Positions 10,300-18,469 of a stretch of 64,000 nt of DNA are shown here, piece after piece. Source of the DNA: Natronococcus sp. CG52 (GTDB lineage: Archaea; Halobacteriota; Halobacteria; Halobacteriales; Natrialbaceae). Both the position numbers and the translations under genes were made by a program. The DNA is taken from assembly GCF_023913515.1 (NCBI RefSeq), contig NZ_CP099391.1, positions 1,054,001-1,118,000 on the forward strand, written 5' to 3'. The notes beneath the pieces are model-generated. The model was not told where the DNA came from, made no database searches, and saw only the letters and a program-made list of their open reading frames with translations. Positions within the stretch are counted from its first letter, which is position 1. Each line of letters begins with the position of its first letter.

Positions 10300-12675
10300 A
10301 TGGACTCGCGCACGCAAGAGCGCGTCGAACAATGGGATTCTCGTGCCTTCAGTGGCGGATACGACGGGCTCCGGACTCTCGTCGATTCTGACTTTTCGGG
10401 CGCCGTTACCGCGGCTAGATCCTGGCTCTTTCTGCTCAACGGTCGCATCGTCGGCACCGTCGACGGTGTCGTCGACGACTTCGAGAACGAATCGGGAACT
10501 CGCTACGAGGCACCACACCCCTCGCTGCCGTTGCTCTGTGCGATGGAAGAACAGGGAGGCGAGACGAGGGCGAAGTACTACACGAACGAGACCCCGCTCC
10601 GAGAGGTCGACGAGACGCTTCGGAACAGTTCGTTCACCGGTTACGTCGAGTTGAGCGAGAACGTTCTCAGCGGGGATTACTACGTTATCTACTACGGGGG
10701 CCGGCGGATGGCTGCCGCGTACATCGGCAGCGCCGAGCGGTTGCTCACCGGCGACGAGGCGTTCGAGCGCGCGGCCGACGAGGTCGGGATCTACGAAGTG
10801 ATCGACGTCGAGATCGAGGTCGAGGACGTTCCCCGCGCGGATGACTCCACACCCGACTCGGACGCGACGGAGTCGACCGACGGGAGCAACGGGAGCAACG
10901 GGAGCAACGAGACCGACGAGACCGACGAGACCGACGGAACCGACGAGCGGCCGACGACCGAGCCCCGGCCGTCGGAGCCAGAGGGAGAGAGCGCGCCGAA
11001 TCCGCGTACCGATTCGGCGACGCCGGCCGCGAGTTCGGGGGTCAGTTCGCCAGCGCCCGACAGCGAGACGTCGAACGCCGCTTCGGGAATCACCACGGCC
11101 GACGAGACCGACGCGGATCAGGCATCGACGACCGGGATCACCGATGCCGCACCCGAAAGCGGGGCGTCGAACGCGCAGACGGAATCGAGTGGGCCGGATC
11201 AGGCGAGCGAACGGGACGAGACCATCGACTCGCCCACAGATACTGCCGACGACGCCACGACGGAGACGGACGCTGACGAAGCGAGTGCGGACGCCGACGA
11301 ACCGGACACCGAAACGAGCGACGACGAGAGCGCGCGAACGGACTCGTCACCGGATCCCGAAGTGGTCGAGGCGGCGGCCAGAGAACTCGATCGCCAGGAC
11401 ATCGACTGGGTCGACGACGACTCGGAAGGTGGGGAGCAGCCGGAGGACGCCGAACTCGAGGAACGATTCGAGCAAGAAGAGCAGTGGCGCGAAACGCGCA
11501 GCATTCCGTCGATCGATCCGGACAACACCGAGGCGAGCGACGCAGCGACCCCGGCGGGCGGCTCGGGGTCGGCCAGGCGAGAGGACGCTGCCGGGAATCG
11601 ATCCCGGCCGGAATCAACGCAGACGTCACCGTCGAAATCCGAGAGCGGACGCTCGAGTTCCCAGTCGGAACGCCAGTCCGATCGCACACAGCGTTCGGAC
11701 GCCACGACAACTGAAGCGGACGACGAGCGACGCGCGAAGGCGAGCCAGCAACTCGAGCAACTCGAGAAACAGCGGAACGCGCTCCGGACGAAAGTCCAGG
11801 AACTCGAGGCCGAACGCGATCAGCTTCGCTCGAAGAACCAGCAGCTGTCGTCGACCGTCGACAAACTCCGGTCGCGCGTCGAGGAACTCGAGACGGAGCT
11901 CGAGCGAGCCCGCGCCGCCGGTGAGACGGAACGCGAGCGGGCCGGCGGCGCGCAACTGTCGCGCAAGGAGGCGCTGTCCGGGACGAACCTCTTCGTCCGG
12001 TACGCGTCGAAGAGTCGACCCACCCTCGAGACGGCCCACGACGGCGGCGCCGACCGCGGCGAGGTCGAGTCGAACCTGCGCCTCGAGCATCACACCCAGT
12101 TCGACGAGTCCGATGCCGTCGTCGACGGCGACCCCTACGAGGAGGCGCTCACCTCGTCGATGGAGTACCGGTTCGTCGACTGGCTCACGTCGGTCGTCCT
12201 CTACGAGATTCGTGATACCGGTCACGCGGACGCGCTGAGCGACCTCTACGACGCGATCCCCATGATCGACCGCGCCGAACTCCACGCCACGATCTCGCTC
12301 GAGGACGACGAGACCGAAGACGTTCCGGATCAGGTCGGCTTCGACGTCGTCGCCTACGACAAGATGGGGAGTCCGCTCCTCGTCGCGAACCTGAACGACT
12401 CCCGGGAGCCGGCCTCGCAGGCGATGCTCGAGGAGATGGAGGAAGCCGCGTCGGCGGTCAAGGCGAACTACCCCGACCTCGCGTCGGCGATCGTCGTCAC
12501 CTCGAGTTACTTCGAGCCGGGCGCGCTCGAAGTCGTCGAGCGGGCGACCAGCGGCGGGTTCCTCAGCCGCGGCTCGCGGCTGAGCTACGTCAACCTGTCG
12601 CGAAAGCAGGGCTACCACCTCTGTCTGGCCGAGTCGCGTTCGGAGGGATTCCACATGAACGTCCCCGAACTGTAG
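10300..12675 (+). CDS. Large acidic protein with disordered linker and coiled coil
   Basis: The 791-residue protein has three parts. Residues 1-170 form a globular domain (DSDFSGAVTAARSWLFLLNG, YVIYYGGRRMAAAYIG). A roughly 300-residue Thr/Ser/Asp/Glu-rich linker follows, including short tandem units (GSN and ETD repeats near residues 195-215). A heptad-like coiled coil (QQLEQLEKQRNALRTKVQEL and on) is at about 475-550. The last 230 residues are a second globular domain (SGTNLFVRYASKSRPTLETA to FHMNVPEL). I believe the end domains correspond to a haloarchaeal DUF7527-type family; function unknown. No signal peptide or membrane segment. A TATA-like gtatttg lies about 28 bases before the ATG. 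Confidence 0.8.
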   Translation: MDSRTQERVEQWDSRAFSGGYDGLRTLVDSDFSGAVTAARSWLFLLNGRIVGTVDGVVDDFENESGTRYEAPHPSLPLLCAMEEQGGETRAKYYTNETPLREVDETLRNSSFTGYVELSENVLSGDYYVIYYGGRRMAAAYIGSAERLLTGDEAFERAADEVGIYEVIDVEIEVEDVPRADDSTPDSDATESTDGSNGSNGSNETDETDETDGTDERPTTEPRPSEPEGESAPNPRTDSATPAASSGVSSPAPDSETSNAASGITTADETDADQASTTGITDAAPESGASNAQTESSGPDQASERDETIDSPTDTADDATTETDADEASADADEPDTETSDDESARTDSSPDPEVVEAAARELDRQDIDWVDDDSEGGEQPEDAELEERFEQEEQWRETRSIPSIDPDNTEASDAATPAGGSGSARREDAAGNRSRPESTQTSPSKSESGRSSSQSERQSDRTQRSDATTTEADDERRAKASQQLEQLEKQRNALRTKVQELEAERDQLRSKNQQLSSTVDKLRSRVEELETELERARAAGETERERAGGAQLSRKEALSGTNLFVRYASKSRPTLETAHDGGADRGEVESNLRLEHHTQFDESDAVVDGDPYEEALTSSMEYRFVDWLTSVVLYEIRDTGHADALSDLYDAIPMIDRAELHATISLEDDETEDVPDQVGFDVVAYDKMGSPLLVANLNDSREPASQAMLEEMEEAASAVKANYPDLASAIVVTSSYFEPGALEVVERATSGGFLSRGSRLSYVNLSRKQGYHLCLAESRSEGFHMNVPEL

Positions 12676-14828: not shown

Positions 14829-16907
14829 CTACGAGACGGGGTAAACCAGCTGTTTCCGTTCGTCCATCCAGTAAAACCGACCGTCGTAGAAGATCGGCCG
14901 ATTGCTGAACGAGAGGTACCTGTTGAGTTCGTCCGGTGAAACGTCGAACGCGATCGGCGTCGAAGTCAGGTGTTTCGCGTCCGACCAGTCCTGCAGCCAG
15001 TAGGCACCGACCGGATCGACCGGGAACGGCACGACCGTCACCTCTACGCTTCCATTTCCAGTCGACTGTAACACGTGTACCGACGAGGGCTGCCATTTCG
15101 CCACGAACCGATGGGTTCCATCACCGACGACGAGACCCCGTCCGTCTTCTCCGCAGACGGCGCACGTGTGTGCGGCGGCCAGAGACTGCCCGCTTAGCAC
15201 CAGTTTCCCGATCGTCGTCGAGACCGCCGGAGGCGACTCTTCCGGGGTCGACTCCGATTCGGTTCTCACGACGCCGGCGATGCTCCCCGACTCGACCAGT
15301 CCGACGCCGGCCGCTCGAGAGTCCGGCGCATCGAGCTGGAACAGCTGTACGTCGTTCTCGCGAAGGTCGGCGGAGTCGAGTACTCCGTCCTGACACACCA
15401 ATCCGCCGTCCTCGCAGCGCCCGACGTAGTGGAGGAAGTCGCCGCCGCTTCGGAACGCGGCGGCGAGTTCGTCGCACGTCGGGGCGTCGAGTCGGCGGAC
15501 CGTCGTCGAGGAGGGAACGGACCGTCCCACGTACTGTTCGGCGACTGCACGCCGGTCGGCGTCCCGTTCCCCGGCAAAGACGACGATGACGGTTCGTCCA
15601 ACCCGGTTCTGCTCGAGATGCGCCAGCCGATTCTCGTAGGCTCGCCGTAGCGCCGAGAAGCCCGGGGCGTCTTCGACGTCTCCGAGGGTGCCCCGAGCCG
15701 TCCGACACCGACTTAGCTCGGTGACCGGGGTCGACTCGGGTTCAGGTGCGGGGCGCGTGGTGCTCTCGGGGTCGAATGCGCGTTCCGGAGGCAGCACGAT
15801 CGCAGCGAGGTCGTAGAGCAGATGTGGGAGCGAGGTCACGTTCGAGACCGACGGTTCGACGGTCATCACGTACGGCCACTCCGGCAGGACGTCGTCGATG
15901 GGATCCGTGGGGAACTCCAGATAGGCCGCCAGACGCTCGGCGGCCGTCCCGTCCGCGCAGTGATCGAGGTCGACGCCGGCGGCCTCGAGACGCTCGAACT
16001 CGTGGGTCGTCGGGCTGCCCGGATCGTTCCAGGAGGCCATCTGGTCCAGAAAGAACACCCGACGAAGGAGGTCCGGTGCGGCCCGCTCGAACTGTGCCAA
16101 CCCGTCGAACTCGTAGTGAAGATCGACCGACGGCGCGCGGAGGAGCGGCGCAGTCGCGTCGGTCGGACGCAGGCGTGCTCCCAGGTAGTACGCGAGCGGC
16201 GCGCCGAGAAAGAGCGCTGCCAGCCGATCCGGGACGAGCAGTTCGATCCCGGTTTCCGGCGTTTGCTCCGCGACCGGTTCCGGGACGCGGGTTTCCTCAC
16301 CGAGGGTGAGCAACGGTGGGTGGCCGCGGTAGTTTCGGTGGACGCGATCCGCCGTCGTCGTCTCGATCGTCGCCGAGAGGTGTGAGAGCCCCGTGGCGAT
16401 ACCTTCGGTCGTCGGCTCGACGGTCACCTCGTGTCGTGGGTAATCGACGGGTGACTTGAAACCGAACGTCACCGGCGTCGGTTGCGGAAACGATATCTCC
16501 AGACGCTCCCCGGGGCGGTTCGAGACCGTTGCCGCACCGTCGAACCGGAGGCGAACGAAAAGCGTCGTATCGAACCGGAAGAAGTACTCCCCCTCTGGAA
16601 GCGTTACTCGTTCGTCCTCGAACGCCGCCAGGACGCAGTCCGCGCGGTCCGCCGTCTCCGCGGCGTCGGTATCGGCCGACTGCTCGTCGAGTCGGGCGAT
16701 ATCGACCATGTTCCGAAAGTCGTAGCGGATCTCGGAAACCCGACCCGCGACGACGGCGTCGATCGGTTCGTCGAAGCCGTGTGGATCCGAGAGGCGATCC
16801 CAGCCGGTCAGATCGAACGCGATCGAGTTTCCGCCGATGTCGGTGGCCCGAAGCGACGTTCCTGTCACTTCGATCGAGACGGGATCCGCGTCGTTCGGGA
16901 CCGTCAT
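14829..16907 (-). CDS. Haloarchaeal protein with C-terminal CHAT-like domain lacking its catalytic residues
   Basis: A 692-residue protein. Residues 1-180 form a beta-rich region. The middle (TGIELLVPDRLAALFLGAPL, APDLLRRVFFLDQMASW) resembles a haloarchaeal family I know with a CHAT (caspase-like) C-terminus. From about residue 420 the CHAT-like fold follows: FSALRRAYENRLAHLEQN, GGDFLHYVGRCEDGG, LFQLDAPDSRAAG, LVESGSIAGVV, then LVVGDGTHRF. In active members the GH histidine and a Cys in an N-A-C-R-S-like motif form the dyad. Here these positions are Arg496 and Pro528, so it is probably a pseudoenzyme. Its ATG overlaps the stop of the upstream histidine kinase gene by four bases, indicating coupled translation. 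Confidence 0.7.
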   Translation of the reverse strand: MTVPNDADPVSIEVTGTSLRATDIGGNSIAFDLTGWDRLSDPHGFDEPIDAVVAGRVSEIRYDFRNMVDIARLDEQSADTDAAETADRADCVLAAFEDERVTLPEGEYFFRFDTTLFVRLRFDGAATVSNRPGERLEISFPQPTPVTFGFKSPVDYPRHEVTVEPTTEGIATGLSHLSATIETTTADRVHRNYRGHPPLLTLGEETRVPEPVAEQTPETGIELLVPDRLAALFLGAPLAYYLGARLRPTDATAPLLRAPSVDLHYEFDGLAQFERAAPDLLRRVFFLDQMASWNDPGSPTTHEFERLEAAGVDLDHCADGTAAERLAAYLEFPTDPIDDVLPEWPYVMTVEPSVSNVTSLPHLLYDLAAIVLPPERAFDPESTTRPAPEPESTPVTELSRCRTARGTLGDVEDAPGFSALRRAYENRLAHLEQNRVGRTVIVVFAGERDADRRAVAEQYVGRSVPSSTTVRRLDAPTCDELAAAFRSGGDFLHYVGRCEDGGLVCQDGVLDSADLRENDVQLFQLDAPDSRAAGVGLVESGSIAGVVRTESESTPEESPPAVSTTIGKLVLSGQSLAAAHTCAVCGEDGRGLVVGDGTHRFVAKWQPSSVHVLQSTGNGSVEVTVVPFPVDPVGAYWLQDWSDAKHLTSTPIAFDVSPDELNRYLSFSNRPIFYDGRFYWMDERKQLVYPVS

Positions 16908-18469
16908 CGACGGCCCTCCGTCGCTTCACTGCCGGGCTCGGGCTCCATCTCTCTGGAGGGGCGCTCGGTAAACTCGAATCGAGCGCCGCCGGTCTCTCCC
17001 GTCCGTAGATCGGCCGTCCAGCCGTGCGCCTCGCTGATCTGGCGGACGATGGCGAGTCCGAGACCGGTGTTCTCCCCTTCGGTCGTGTAACCGGGCTCGA
17101 AGACGGCCTCGCGCTCGTCGGGTGGTATCCCCGGCCCGTCGTCGGCGACGGCGAACCCGTTCGGGAGCGACTCGACGCGGAGACGGATCTCCGAGCCGAC
17201 GTGTTCGACGGCGTCCTGCTGAGCGTGCGAAACAGAGTTCGTCGAGCCGTGCTCGACGCTATTCCGAAAGAGGTTCTCGAAGAGCTGGAGCAGCCGACTC
17301 CGATCGGCTTCGATCGATCGATCAACGTCGACCTCGAGAATCGCGCGTTCTGTCGAAACGTTCTCCCACGCCTCGCGTGCGGTCGCCTCGACCGAGACGC
17401 GTTCGAACCCGTCGGTCTCGCCGTCACGCGCCAGCGTGAGAACGTCGTCGATGAGCCGGTCCATCCGGTCGTGTGCACGCTCGATCTTCTCGAGTTCCGT
17501 CGACGAGTGGCGGTCCATCGCGAGTTCGAGGTAGCCGTTCGCGACGTTCAACGGGTTCCGGAGGTCGTGACTGACGATGCTCGCAAACCGGTCGAGCCGC
17601 TCGTTCTTGCGCTCGAGTTCCCGCTCGCGATCTTTCAGCTCGGTCAGATCGGTGTAGATCAGATATCCACGGATCGTCTCGTCACCGGTGGCGACCGGAA
17701 CGTTTCGCAGCAGGAAGGGGCGCGGACCGGTCGATGTCTCCCGAACGACCTCGATGTCGGTCTGTCGTCCCGCGTCCATCGCGTACCCGAGTTCCGGCTC
17801 GGTATCTTCGTCGTCGGGGACGAGTAGCGTCTCGAGTGGCTCGTTCACGACTTCGGTCGCCTCGCACCCGAAGGTCCGGATGAACGACGAGTTGACGGCG
17901 TCGACGAGTTGCGTCCCGTCCTCGATACGATACTGCAACGCCGCGTCGGGAACGTTTTCGAACAGTGCCGCGAACCGATCTCGCTGGCGTCCCAGTTCCT
18001 CCTCGTAGGTGATCCGAGCACGCACGTTCGTCACGATCGCTGCGAGCAACTCACCGAGCTGACGGTCGACTGCCGAGAACGCCTCGCACTCCCGTGAGTG
18101 AAGCTGTATGACGCCGTCGTGGCCGAACGGAATCGAGAGCACCGATCGGAAACACTCGCTTGCAGGGGCAGCCGCTGGCTCGGCTTCGAGATCGTCGACG
18201 ACGAACGTTCGTCCCTCCTCGAGCGTCTTGCCGGCGATACCGTCGCCTGCGGCTAACGGGGCCGCAGGAACGAGTCGGTCGACGTTCACTGCCCTGGGTT
18301 CGAACTGCCCGTTTTCGGCCGTACAGATGATCGCGGTGTCGAACTCGATGAGGTCCTCGACGGCCACCACGGTGTGATCGTAGACGTCGTCGATAGTGTC
18401 GCAGGTGTCGAGGCCGGAGACGAGGCTCCCGACCGTATCGACGGTGTTCCGAAATCGATTCGATGGCAT
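16904..18469 (-). CDS. GAF-PAS sensor histidine kinase
   Basis: The 521-residue cytosolic kinase has a GAF domain (about 20-155; FDTAIICTAENGQFEPRAV, IPFGHDGVIQLHS) and a PAS domain (about 165-275; FAALFENVPDAALQYRIEDG to GYLIYTDLTELKDRE). The HisKA H-box is IVSHDLRNPLN. The HATPase domain has N box LFENLFRNSVEHGS, G1 VADDGPGIP and G2 NTGLGLAIV. No membrane segment and no receiver domain are visible, and no response regulator gene is adjacent. It overlaps the CHAT-like gene downstream by ATGA. The two probably form one operon, the kinase sensing a cytosolic or diffusible signal. Confidence 0.88.
   Translation of the reverse strand: MPSNRFRNTVDTVGSLVSGLDTCDTIDDVYDHTVVAVEDLIEFDTAIICTAENGQFEPRAVNVDRLVPAAPLAAGDGIAGKTLEEGRTFVVDDLEAEPAAAPASECFRSVLSIPFGHDGVIQLHSRECEAFSAVDRQLGELLAAIVTNVRARITYEEELGRQRDRFAALFENVPDAALQYRIEDGTQLVDAVNSSFIRTFGCEATEVVNEPLETLLVPDDEDTEPELGYAMDAGRQTDIEVVRETSTGPRPFLLRNVPVATGDETIRGYLIYTDLTELKDRERELERKNERLDRFASIVSHDLRNPLNVANGYLELAMDRHSSTELEKIERAHDRMDRLIDDVLTLARDGETDGFERVSVEATAREAWENVSTERAILEVDVDRSIEADRSRLLQLFENLFRNSVEHGSTNSVSHAQQDAVEHVGSEIRLRVESLPNGFAVADDGPGIPPDEREAVFEPGYTTEGENTGLGLAIVRQISEAHGWTADLRTGETGGARFEFTERPSREMEPEPGSEATEGRR

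Follow-up and report, generated by a model that had tools for sequence, protein, structure and literature searches.

The Gene Pair and Its Domains

A 64-kb stretch of DNA from Natronococcus sp. CG52 (64,000 nucleotides; contig NZ_CP099391.1, positions 1,054,001 to 1,118,000; hereafter the window) carries two overlapping genes on its minus strand, encoding a histidine kinase and a predicted relative of the CHAT proteases without a catalytic dyad (hereafter the pseudo-CHAT protein). The kinase (521 residues; 16904..18469) was identified from its open reading frame and Pfam domains, and is made up of GAF (residues 25-147), PAS (165-279), HisKA (292-349, FASIVSHDLRNPL) and HATPase_c (389-501) domains, all scoring above the Pfam cut-offs. 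Its catalytic boxes are intact, with the HisKA histidine and the N, G1 and G2 boxes of a two-component sensor kinase all present. The pseudo-CHAT protein (692 residues; 14829..16907) begins at an ATG within the ATGA overlap (16904..16907, minus strand) that also contains the kinase stop codon. The window as a whole contains no detectable receiver domain, and the kinase has no adjacent receiver regulator. An earlier reading of this DNA from its letters alone (the sequence-only reading) had reported this arrangement, and the Pfam and open reading frame checks confirm it for both genes, including strand, overlap and the GAF-PAS kinase lacking a neighboring regulator.

Three regions can be distinguished in the pseudo-CHAT protein, all encoded on the minus strand. 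A β-rich N-terminal domain (residues 1-198; 16314..16907) is common to the active paralogs and has no confident match in the PDB; Foldseek searches with this region alone returned weak, scattered matches, none with E ≤ 0.001, and no domain name is offered. It is followed by an α/β region (residues 199-372; 15792..16313) and by the caspase-type half of a CHAT region, with a degenerate active site (residues 404-600; 15108..15698).

A Caspase-Type Fold Without Its Catalytic Dyad

An AlphaFold2 model of the 692-residue protein, built on a 30-sequence family alignment, has a mean predicted local distance difference test score (pLDDT) of 85 and a predicted template modeling score (pTM) of 0.86. Compared with the PDB by Foldseek, it matches the gingipains RgpB and Kgp (E 4e-5), separase and Csx29, with caspase-11/4 lower down; every one of the best eleven matches is a caspase-like clan protease. 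The model thus supports a caspase/CHAT-type fold (clan CD, caspase-haemoglobinase). Residues 199-372 gave no separate search match; the gingipain match spans about 450 columns, from which they are taken as the probable non-catalytic part of a bipartite region of CHAT/separase type. Searches by sequence are far less informative. The protein itself has no significant match in Pfam, NCBIfam or PADLOC, the last including any match to anti-phage defense systems; it does not reach the gathering score of Pfam CHAT (PF12770), and a PDB sequence search was also empty. Phage records likewise hold no match to it. Seven of the 30 relatives match Pfam CHAT weakly (best E 0.0066), and no other Pfam family has matches in two or more of them; none of the 30 matches the p20-type C14 domain. 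The C-terminal CHAT-like fold proposed in the sequence-only reading was therefore recovered from structure prediction, with which the weak CHAT matches agree.

Where paralogs from the same genome read HYIGH (or HYVGH) and NACxS (NGCRS in one), the window protein reads HYVGR and DAPDS. It thus has neither the GH histidine nor the NAC cysteine of an active protease: Gly496-Arg497 stands at the catalytic GH (Arg497 codon 15417..15419, minus strand) and Pro528 at the catalytic Cys (codon 15324..15326, minus strand). The sequence-only reading had placed the lost cysteine correctly at Pro528, but its position for the histidine, Arg496, is moved by one residue in the paralog alignment, to Arg497. The whole clade to which the window protein belongs is without the Cys, and the His is also absent except in one member (L012/L151). 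As judged from these alignments, dyad loss marks the entire clade and not the window protein alone. In a tree from which the catalytic columns had been removed, the dyad-less proteins still form one clade (support 100/100). Of 391 haloarchaeal genomes sampled, about 31, belonging to two families, contain them, a figure that is a lower bound because few candidates were scored per genome.

A substitute dyad of His493 and Cys505 was considered and rejected, as both are equally invariant in active paralogs that already have the true His and Cys. For the caspase-type half, the ratio of nonsynonymous to synonymous substitution rates (dN/dS) was 0.2-0.36. This indicates purifying selection and therefore a maintained protein, ruling out a decaying pseudogene. 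The host genome also encodes about seven further family members with motifs of the HYIGH/NACxS type (loci L142-L147), with one tandem pair at L145 and two members on the third contig.

The Former Active Site Has Become Acidic

Residues around the former active site were counted in 36 non-redundant dyad-less proteins and 28 active relatives. All 28 active relatives have His at 497, Asn at 526 (the Asn of NAC) and Cys at 528. In the dyad-less proteins, position 526 is Asp in 33, Glu in two and Pro in one; position 497 is acidic in 26 (Asp 17, Glu 9); and position 528, never Cys, is Pro in 20. Asp526 (codon 15330..15332, minus strand) ends a central strand (520-526) in the AlphaFold2 model. A scan of all 692 columns found conserved acidity gained by the dyad-less clade at only five, of which two are the old active-site positions and 526 is the strongest. 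On this residue evidence, the former active-site pocket has been converted to an acidic one across the clade. The dyad-less proteins further share a clade-specific tail (YPxx, Trp637). A general halophilic drift from Asn to Asp at 526 was rejected as an explanation, since the two other Asn residues conserved in active members did not become Asp.

Linkage and Co-diversification with the Kinase

The linkage survey covered 60 neighborhoods, the window and five named contigs, together holding 40 dyad-less and 30 dyad-intact proteins; the underlying family census scored only the top few candidates of each genome. A same-strand kinase resembling that of the window lies beside every dyad-less protein (40/40) and beside none of the dyad-intact proteins (0/30), four of which have a distant, low-scoring kinase on the opposite strand, 1.4-4.4 kb away. 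Copies lie farther from the kinase only in tandem dyad-less arrays, which share one kinase each (three copies at L104, 5604-13089, and two at L106, 5192-9407). A second set of 55 dyad-intact loci, all without a kinase, partly shares genomes with the first, but 30 of its loci were obtained by searching with a different active sub-family. Four dyad-less entries recorded alongside these loci appear to lack a kinase; they are part of the L104 array, in which the kinase falls outside the fetched flank, and two of them are fragments. The reverse search, with the kinase as query, recovered 35 neighborhoods of window-like kinases. Three of these contain a family member beyond the 40 above, dyad-less in each case, which adjoins the kinase and retains Asp at 526.

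The junctions between the two genes are often overlaps of -4 or -10 nt, and the kinase is downstream in some sub-clades. The two sub-clades of the pseudo-CHAT protein have different flanking genes, yet the pair stays together in both, and it is found once on a plasmid. Of 37 linked kinases, 36 have intact catalytic motifs; the other (L111) has no G2 match, perhaps through a frame error. The conserved, signal-linked pseudoprotease suggested by the sequence-only reading is thus borne out by a kinase beside every sampled dyad-less homolog and by the dN/dS values. None of the findings that it had named as speaking against it came to light on checking: the fold was recovered, no intact catalytic residues were found elsewhere and the pair is conserved. 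A conserved neighbor of the pair in sub-clade 1 is a 791-residue protein (window 10300-12675 in the present case) in which a long acidic stretch of low complexity, rich in Thr and Ser, occurs together with a region resembling a coiled coil and a DUF7527 at the C-terminus.

The linked kinases form one clade relative to 32 related unlinked kinases (Shimodaira-Hasegawa-like approximate likelihood ratio test, SH-aLRT, 99). Pairwise distances among pseudo-CHAT proteins and among their kinases are strongly correlated (Mantel r = 0.89 over 32 pairs; 0.95 and 0.82 within the two sub-clades), a value reached by 0 of 5000 permutations. This mirror-tree signal does not reflect species phylogeny alone, because paralogous pairs within one genome are included. 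Taken from these distances, the two proteins have co-diversified as a matched pair over a long time.

Among the 32 unlinked sister kinases, six adjoin a gene for a regulator with a receiver (REC) domain and HalX (two verified with Pfam) and 11 have a fused REC detected by a home-made profile, giving 17/32 with HalX or fused REC. No REC neighbor was found at the linked loci, and Pfam Response_reg is absent from the ten linked kinases tested; one linked kinase (L102) has a faint REC-like N-terminus. It is suggestive that the pseudo-CHAT gene occupies the place where some relatives have a receiver, in a comparison that is confounded by clade. In the sister kinases L202 and L205-L209 the neighboring REC-HalX response regulator is on the opposite strand, possibly the ancestral arrangement.

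A Proposed Dedicated Signaling Module and Its Alternatives

These observations are best explained by a dedicated signaling module in which the pseudo-CHAT protein would be the kinase's non-proteolytic protein partner, a reading drawn from sequence comparison to which we give a probability of about 0.6. The former protease of CHAT type and the cytosolic GAF-PAS histidine kinase would constitute a two-protein module and bind each other. A signal sensed by the GAF and PAS domains would be passed to the pseudoprotease, through binding or through phosphorylation at the acidic former active site, and the output would be non-proteolytic, for example a client held or released via the N-terminal region common to active haloarchaeal CHAT proteins. 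Output from the kinase to the pseudoprotease is judged more likely than the reverse direction, because the kinase has sensor domains of its own and no receiver, and many of its sisters have a HalX regulator or a fused REC. The sequence-only reading had offered a scaffold, a decoy or a sensor; the acidic pocket adds a fourth option.

Several points weigh against such a module. All linkage stems from a single origin of the dyad-less clade, and the perfect association is therefore one event maintained, not repeated convergence; a Fisher p-value is accordingly not applicable to it. In sub-clade 1 some flanking genes on the purA side are conserved as well, and its synteny is to that extent unremarkable. 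Orphan kinases are numerous in haloarchaea, and the mere absence of a neighboring regulator therefore says little. The window protein itself carries Arg, and no acid, at 497.

The other readings overlap with this one and with each other, and their probabilities do not sum to one. The single origin and the purA-side locus of sub-clade 1 would suit mere neighbors, two genes in a chance operon passed on vertically without any functional connection, yet the pair has been kept through altered neighborhoods and gene orders, plasmid included, the mirror-tree signal includes paralogous pairs within genomes, and the linked kinases are a clade of their own in the sample; this we regard as very improbable. 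Just as improbable is a new enzyme site, such as a metal-dependent hydrolase, in the acidic pocket. The acids at 526 (35/36) and 497 (26/36) are what such a site might use, but the window protein has Arg497 and the caspase-type domain has no further clade-specific conserved metal ligands. The dead pocket might alternatively lie upstream, binding a peptide or ion and controlling a kinase that signals to a regulator encoded elsewhere. The fold is retained while the pocket chemistry is altered, the acidic pair could hold a cation, the tandem copies with one kinase at L104 and L106 fit multiple inputs per kinase, and haloarchaeal kinases often act on distant regulators. The kinase already has its own GAF and PAS domains, which leaves an upstream sensor as a minority possibility, though one of some substance.

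In a special case of the preferred module, Asp526 (Glu in two relatives) would be phosphorylated by the kinase, a caspase-fold receiver thereby substituting for the response regulator. This would be a once-only conversion of a caspase-type fold into a phospho-accepting output protein with an acidic, receiver-like site. Several observations fit the analogy with receivers: 526 is Asp or Glu in 35/36 dyad-less proteins and Asn in 28/28 active ones, two other conserved Asn residues have not turned to Asp, 497 is acidic in 26/36, Asp526 lies at a strand end where LDGP locally resembles the receiver motif VVLDRRLPG, and the intact kinase has no receiver partner where many sisters have HalX or a fused REC. 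Yet a receiver hidden Markov model does not match the pseudo-CHAT protein, there is no conserved equivalent of the receiver Lys or Thr (Arg stands at 548 in only 16/36), position 526 is Pro in L156, true receivers bear their Asp on a different strand, and Asp is generally favored in haloarchaeal proteins. Both the phosphorylation of Asp526 and the conversion of the fold are consequently put forward only tentatively, and on balance are unlikely. More doubtful still is a decoy or dominant-negative role, in which the protein, under control of the kinase, would titrate partners or substrates of the active CHAT proteases of the genome. Pseudoproteases of other families act as decoys, about seven intact-motif members are encoded in the same genome, and the N-terminal region and fold are common to active members. 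The clade-specific tail and the acidic pocket suggest a new binding function instead of mimicry.

Relation to Known Systems

A literature search on CHAT proteins with haloarchaea or with histidine kinases, most subscription journals being outside its coverage, found no description of the pair, in line with the sequence-only reading, which knew of none. The pseudo-CHAT protein shares its predicted fold and central motifs with CHAT proteases (PF12770; Csx29; separase relatives of clan CD), and the annotations of some relatives read “CHAT domain-containing” or “caspase family.” Unlike these proteases and the active haloarchaeal paralogs with their GH...NAC dyad, it has no catalytic His or Cys and falls below the Pfam threshold, and its proposed partner is a histidine kinase in place of a CRISPR or conflict module. 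The nearest concept is that of the bacterial pseudo-orthocaspases (PMC6426788), including Synechocystis SyOC (PMC7889975), which likewise have a caspase fold, have lost the HC dyad and are evolutionarily kept. Those proteins are of the p20 (C14) type with Tyr and Ser replacing the dyad, whereas the present clade is CHAT-type, archaeal and kinase-linked, with Arg, Asp or Glu and mostly Pro at these positions. The survey of dyad-less p20 caspase homologs found them absent from Archaea, and its text mentions neither CHAT proteins nor a kinase partner (PMC6426788). Archaeal two-component systems with HalX regulators draw on the same kinase superfamily, and some sister kinases adjoin REC-HalX genes; the linked kinases differ in having no adjacent receiver domain and a pseudo-CHAT gene in the neighbor's place.

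Animal pseudoproteases are well known as regulators. That a pseudo-CHAT clade has co-evolved with a linked kinase suggests the recruitment of a dead protease to signal transduction in prokaryotes. With this pair one could ask directly whether a two-component kinase may have a partner other than a receiver domain.

Caspase-like activity has been reported in Haloferax volcanii, for which gene homologs were stated to be lacking (PMC3615174). This activity concerns active enzymes, and at most the dyad-intact paralogs, not the pseudo-CHAT protein, would be candidates for it; that haloarchaeal caspase-like activity comes from the dyad-intact relatives, which nearly all haloarchaea in the sample possess, is our conjecture. 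One dyad-intact relative lies at a locus conserved in many haloarchaea (L120-L142; e.g., L134, 1764-7880), where the protease adjoins an enzyme of peptide-modifying type and a metabolic regulator. On one side of the CHAT gene there are FolD and serine hydroxymethyltransferase; the transcriptional regulator TbsP and a YcaO protein come after it.

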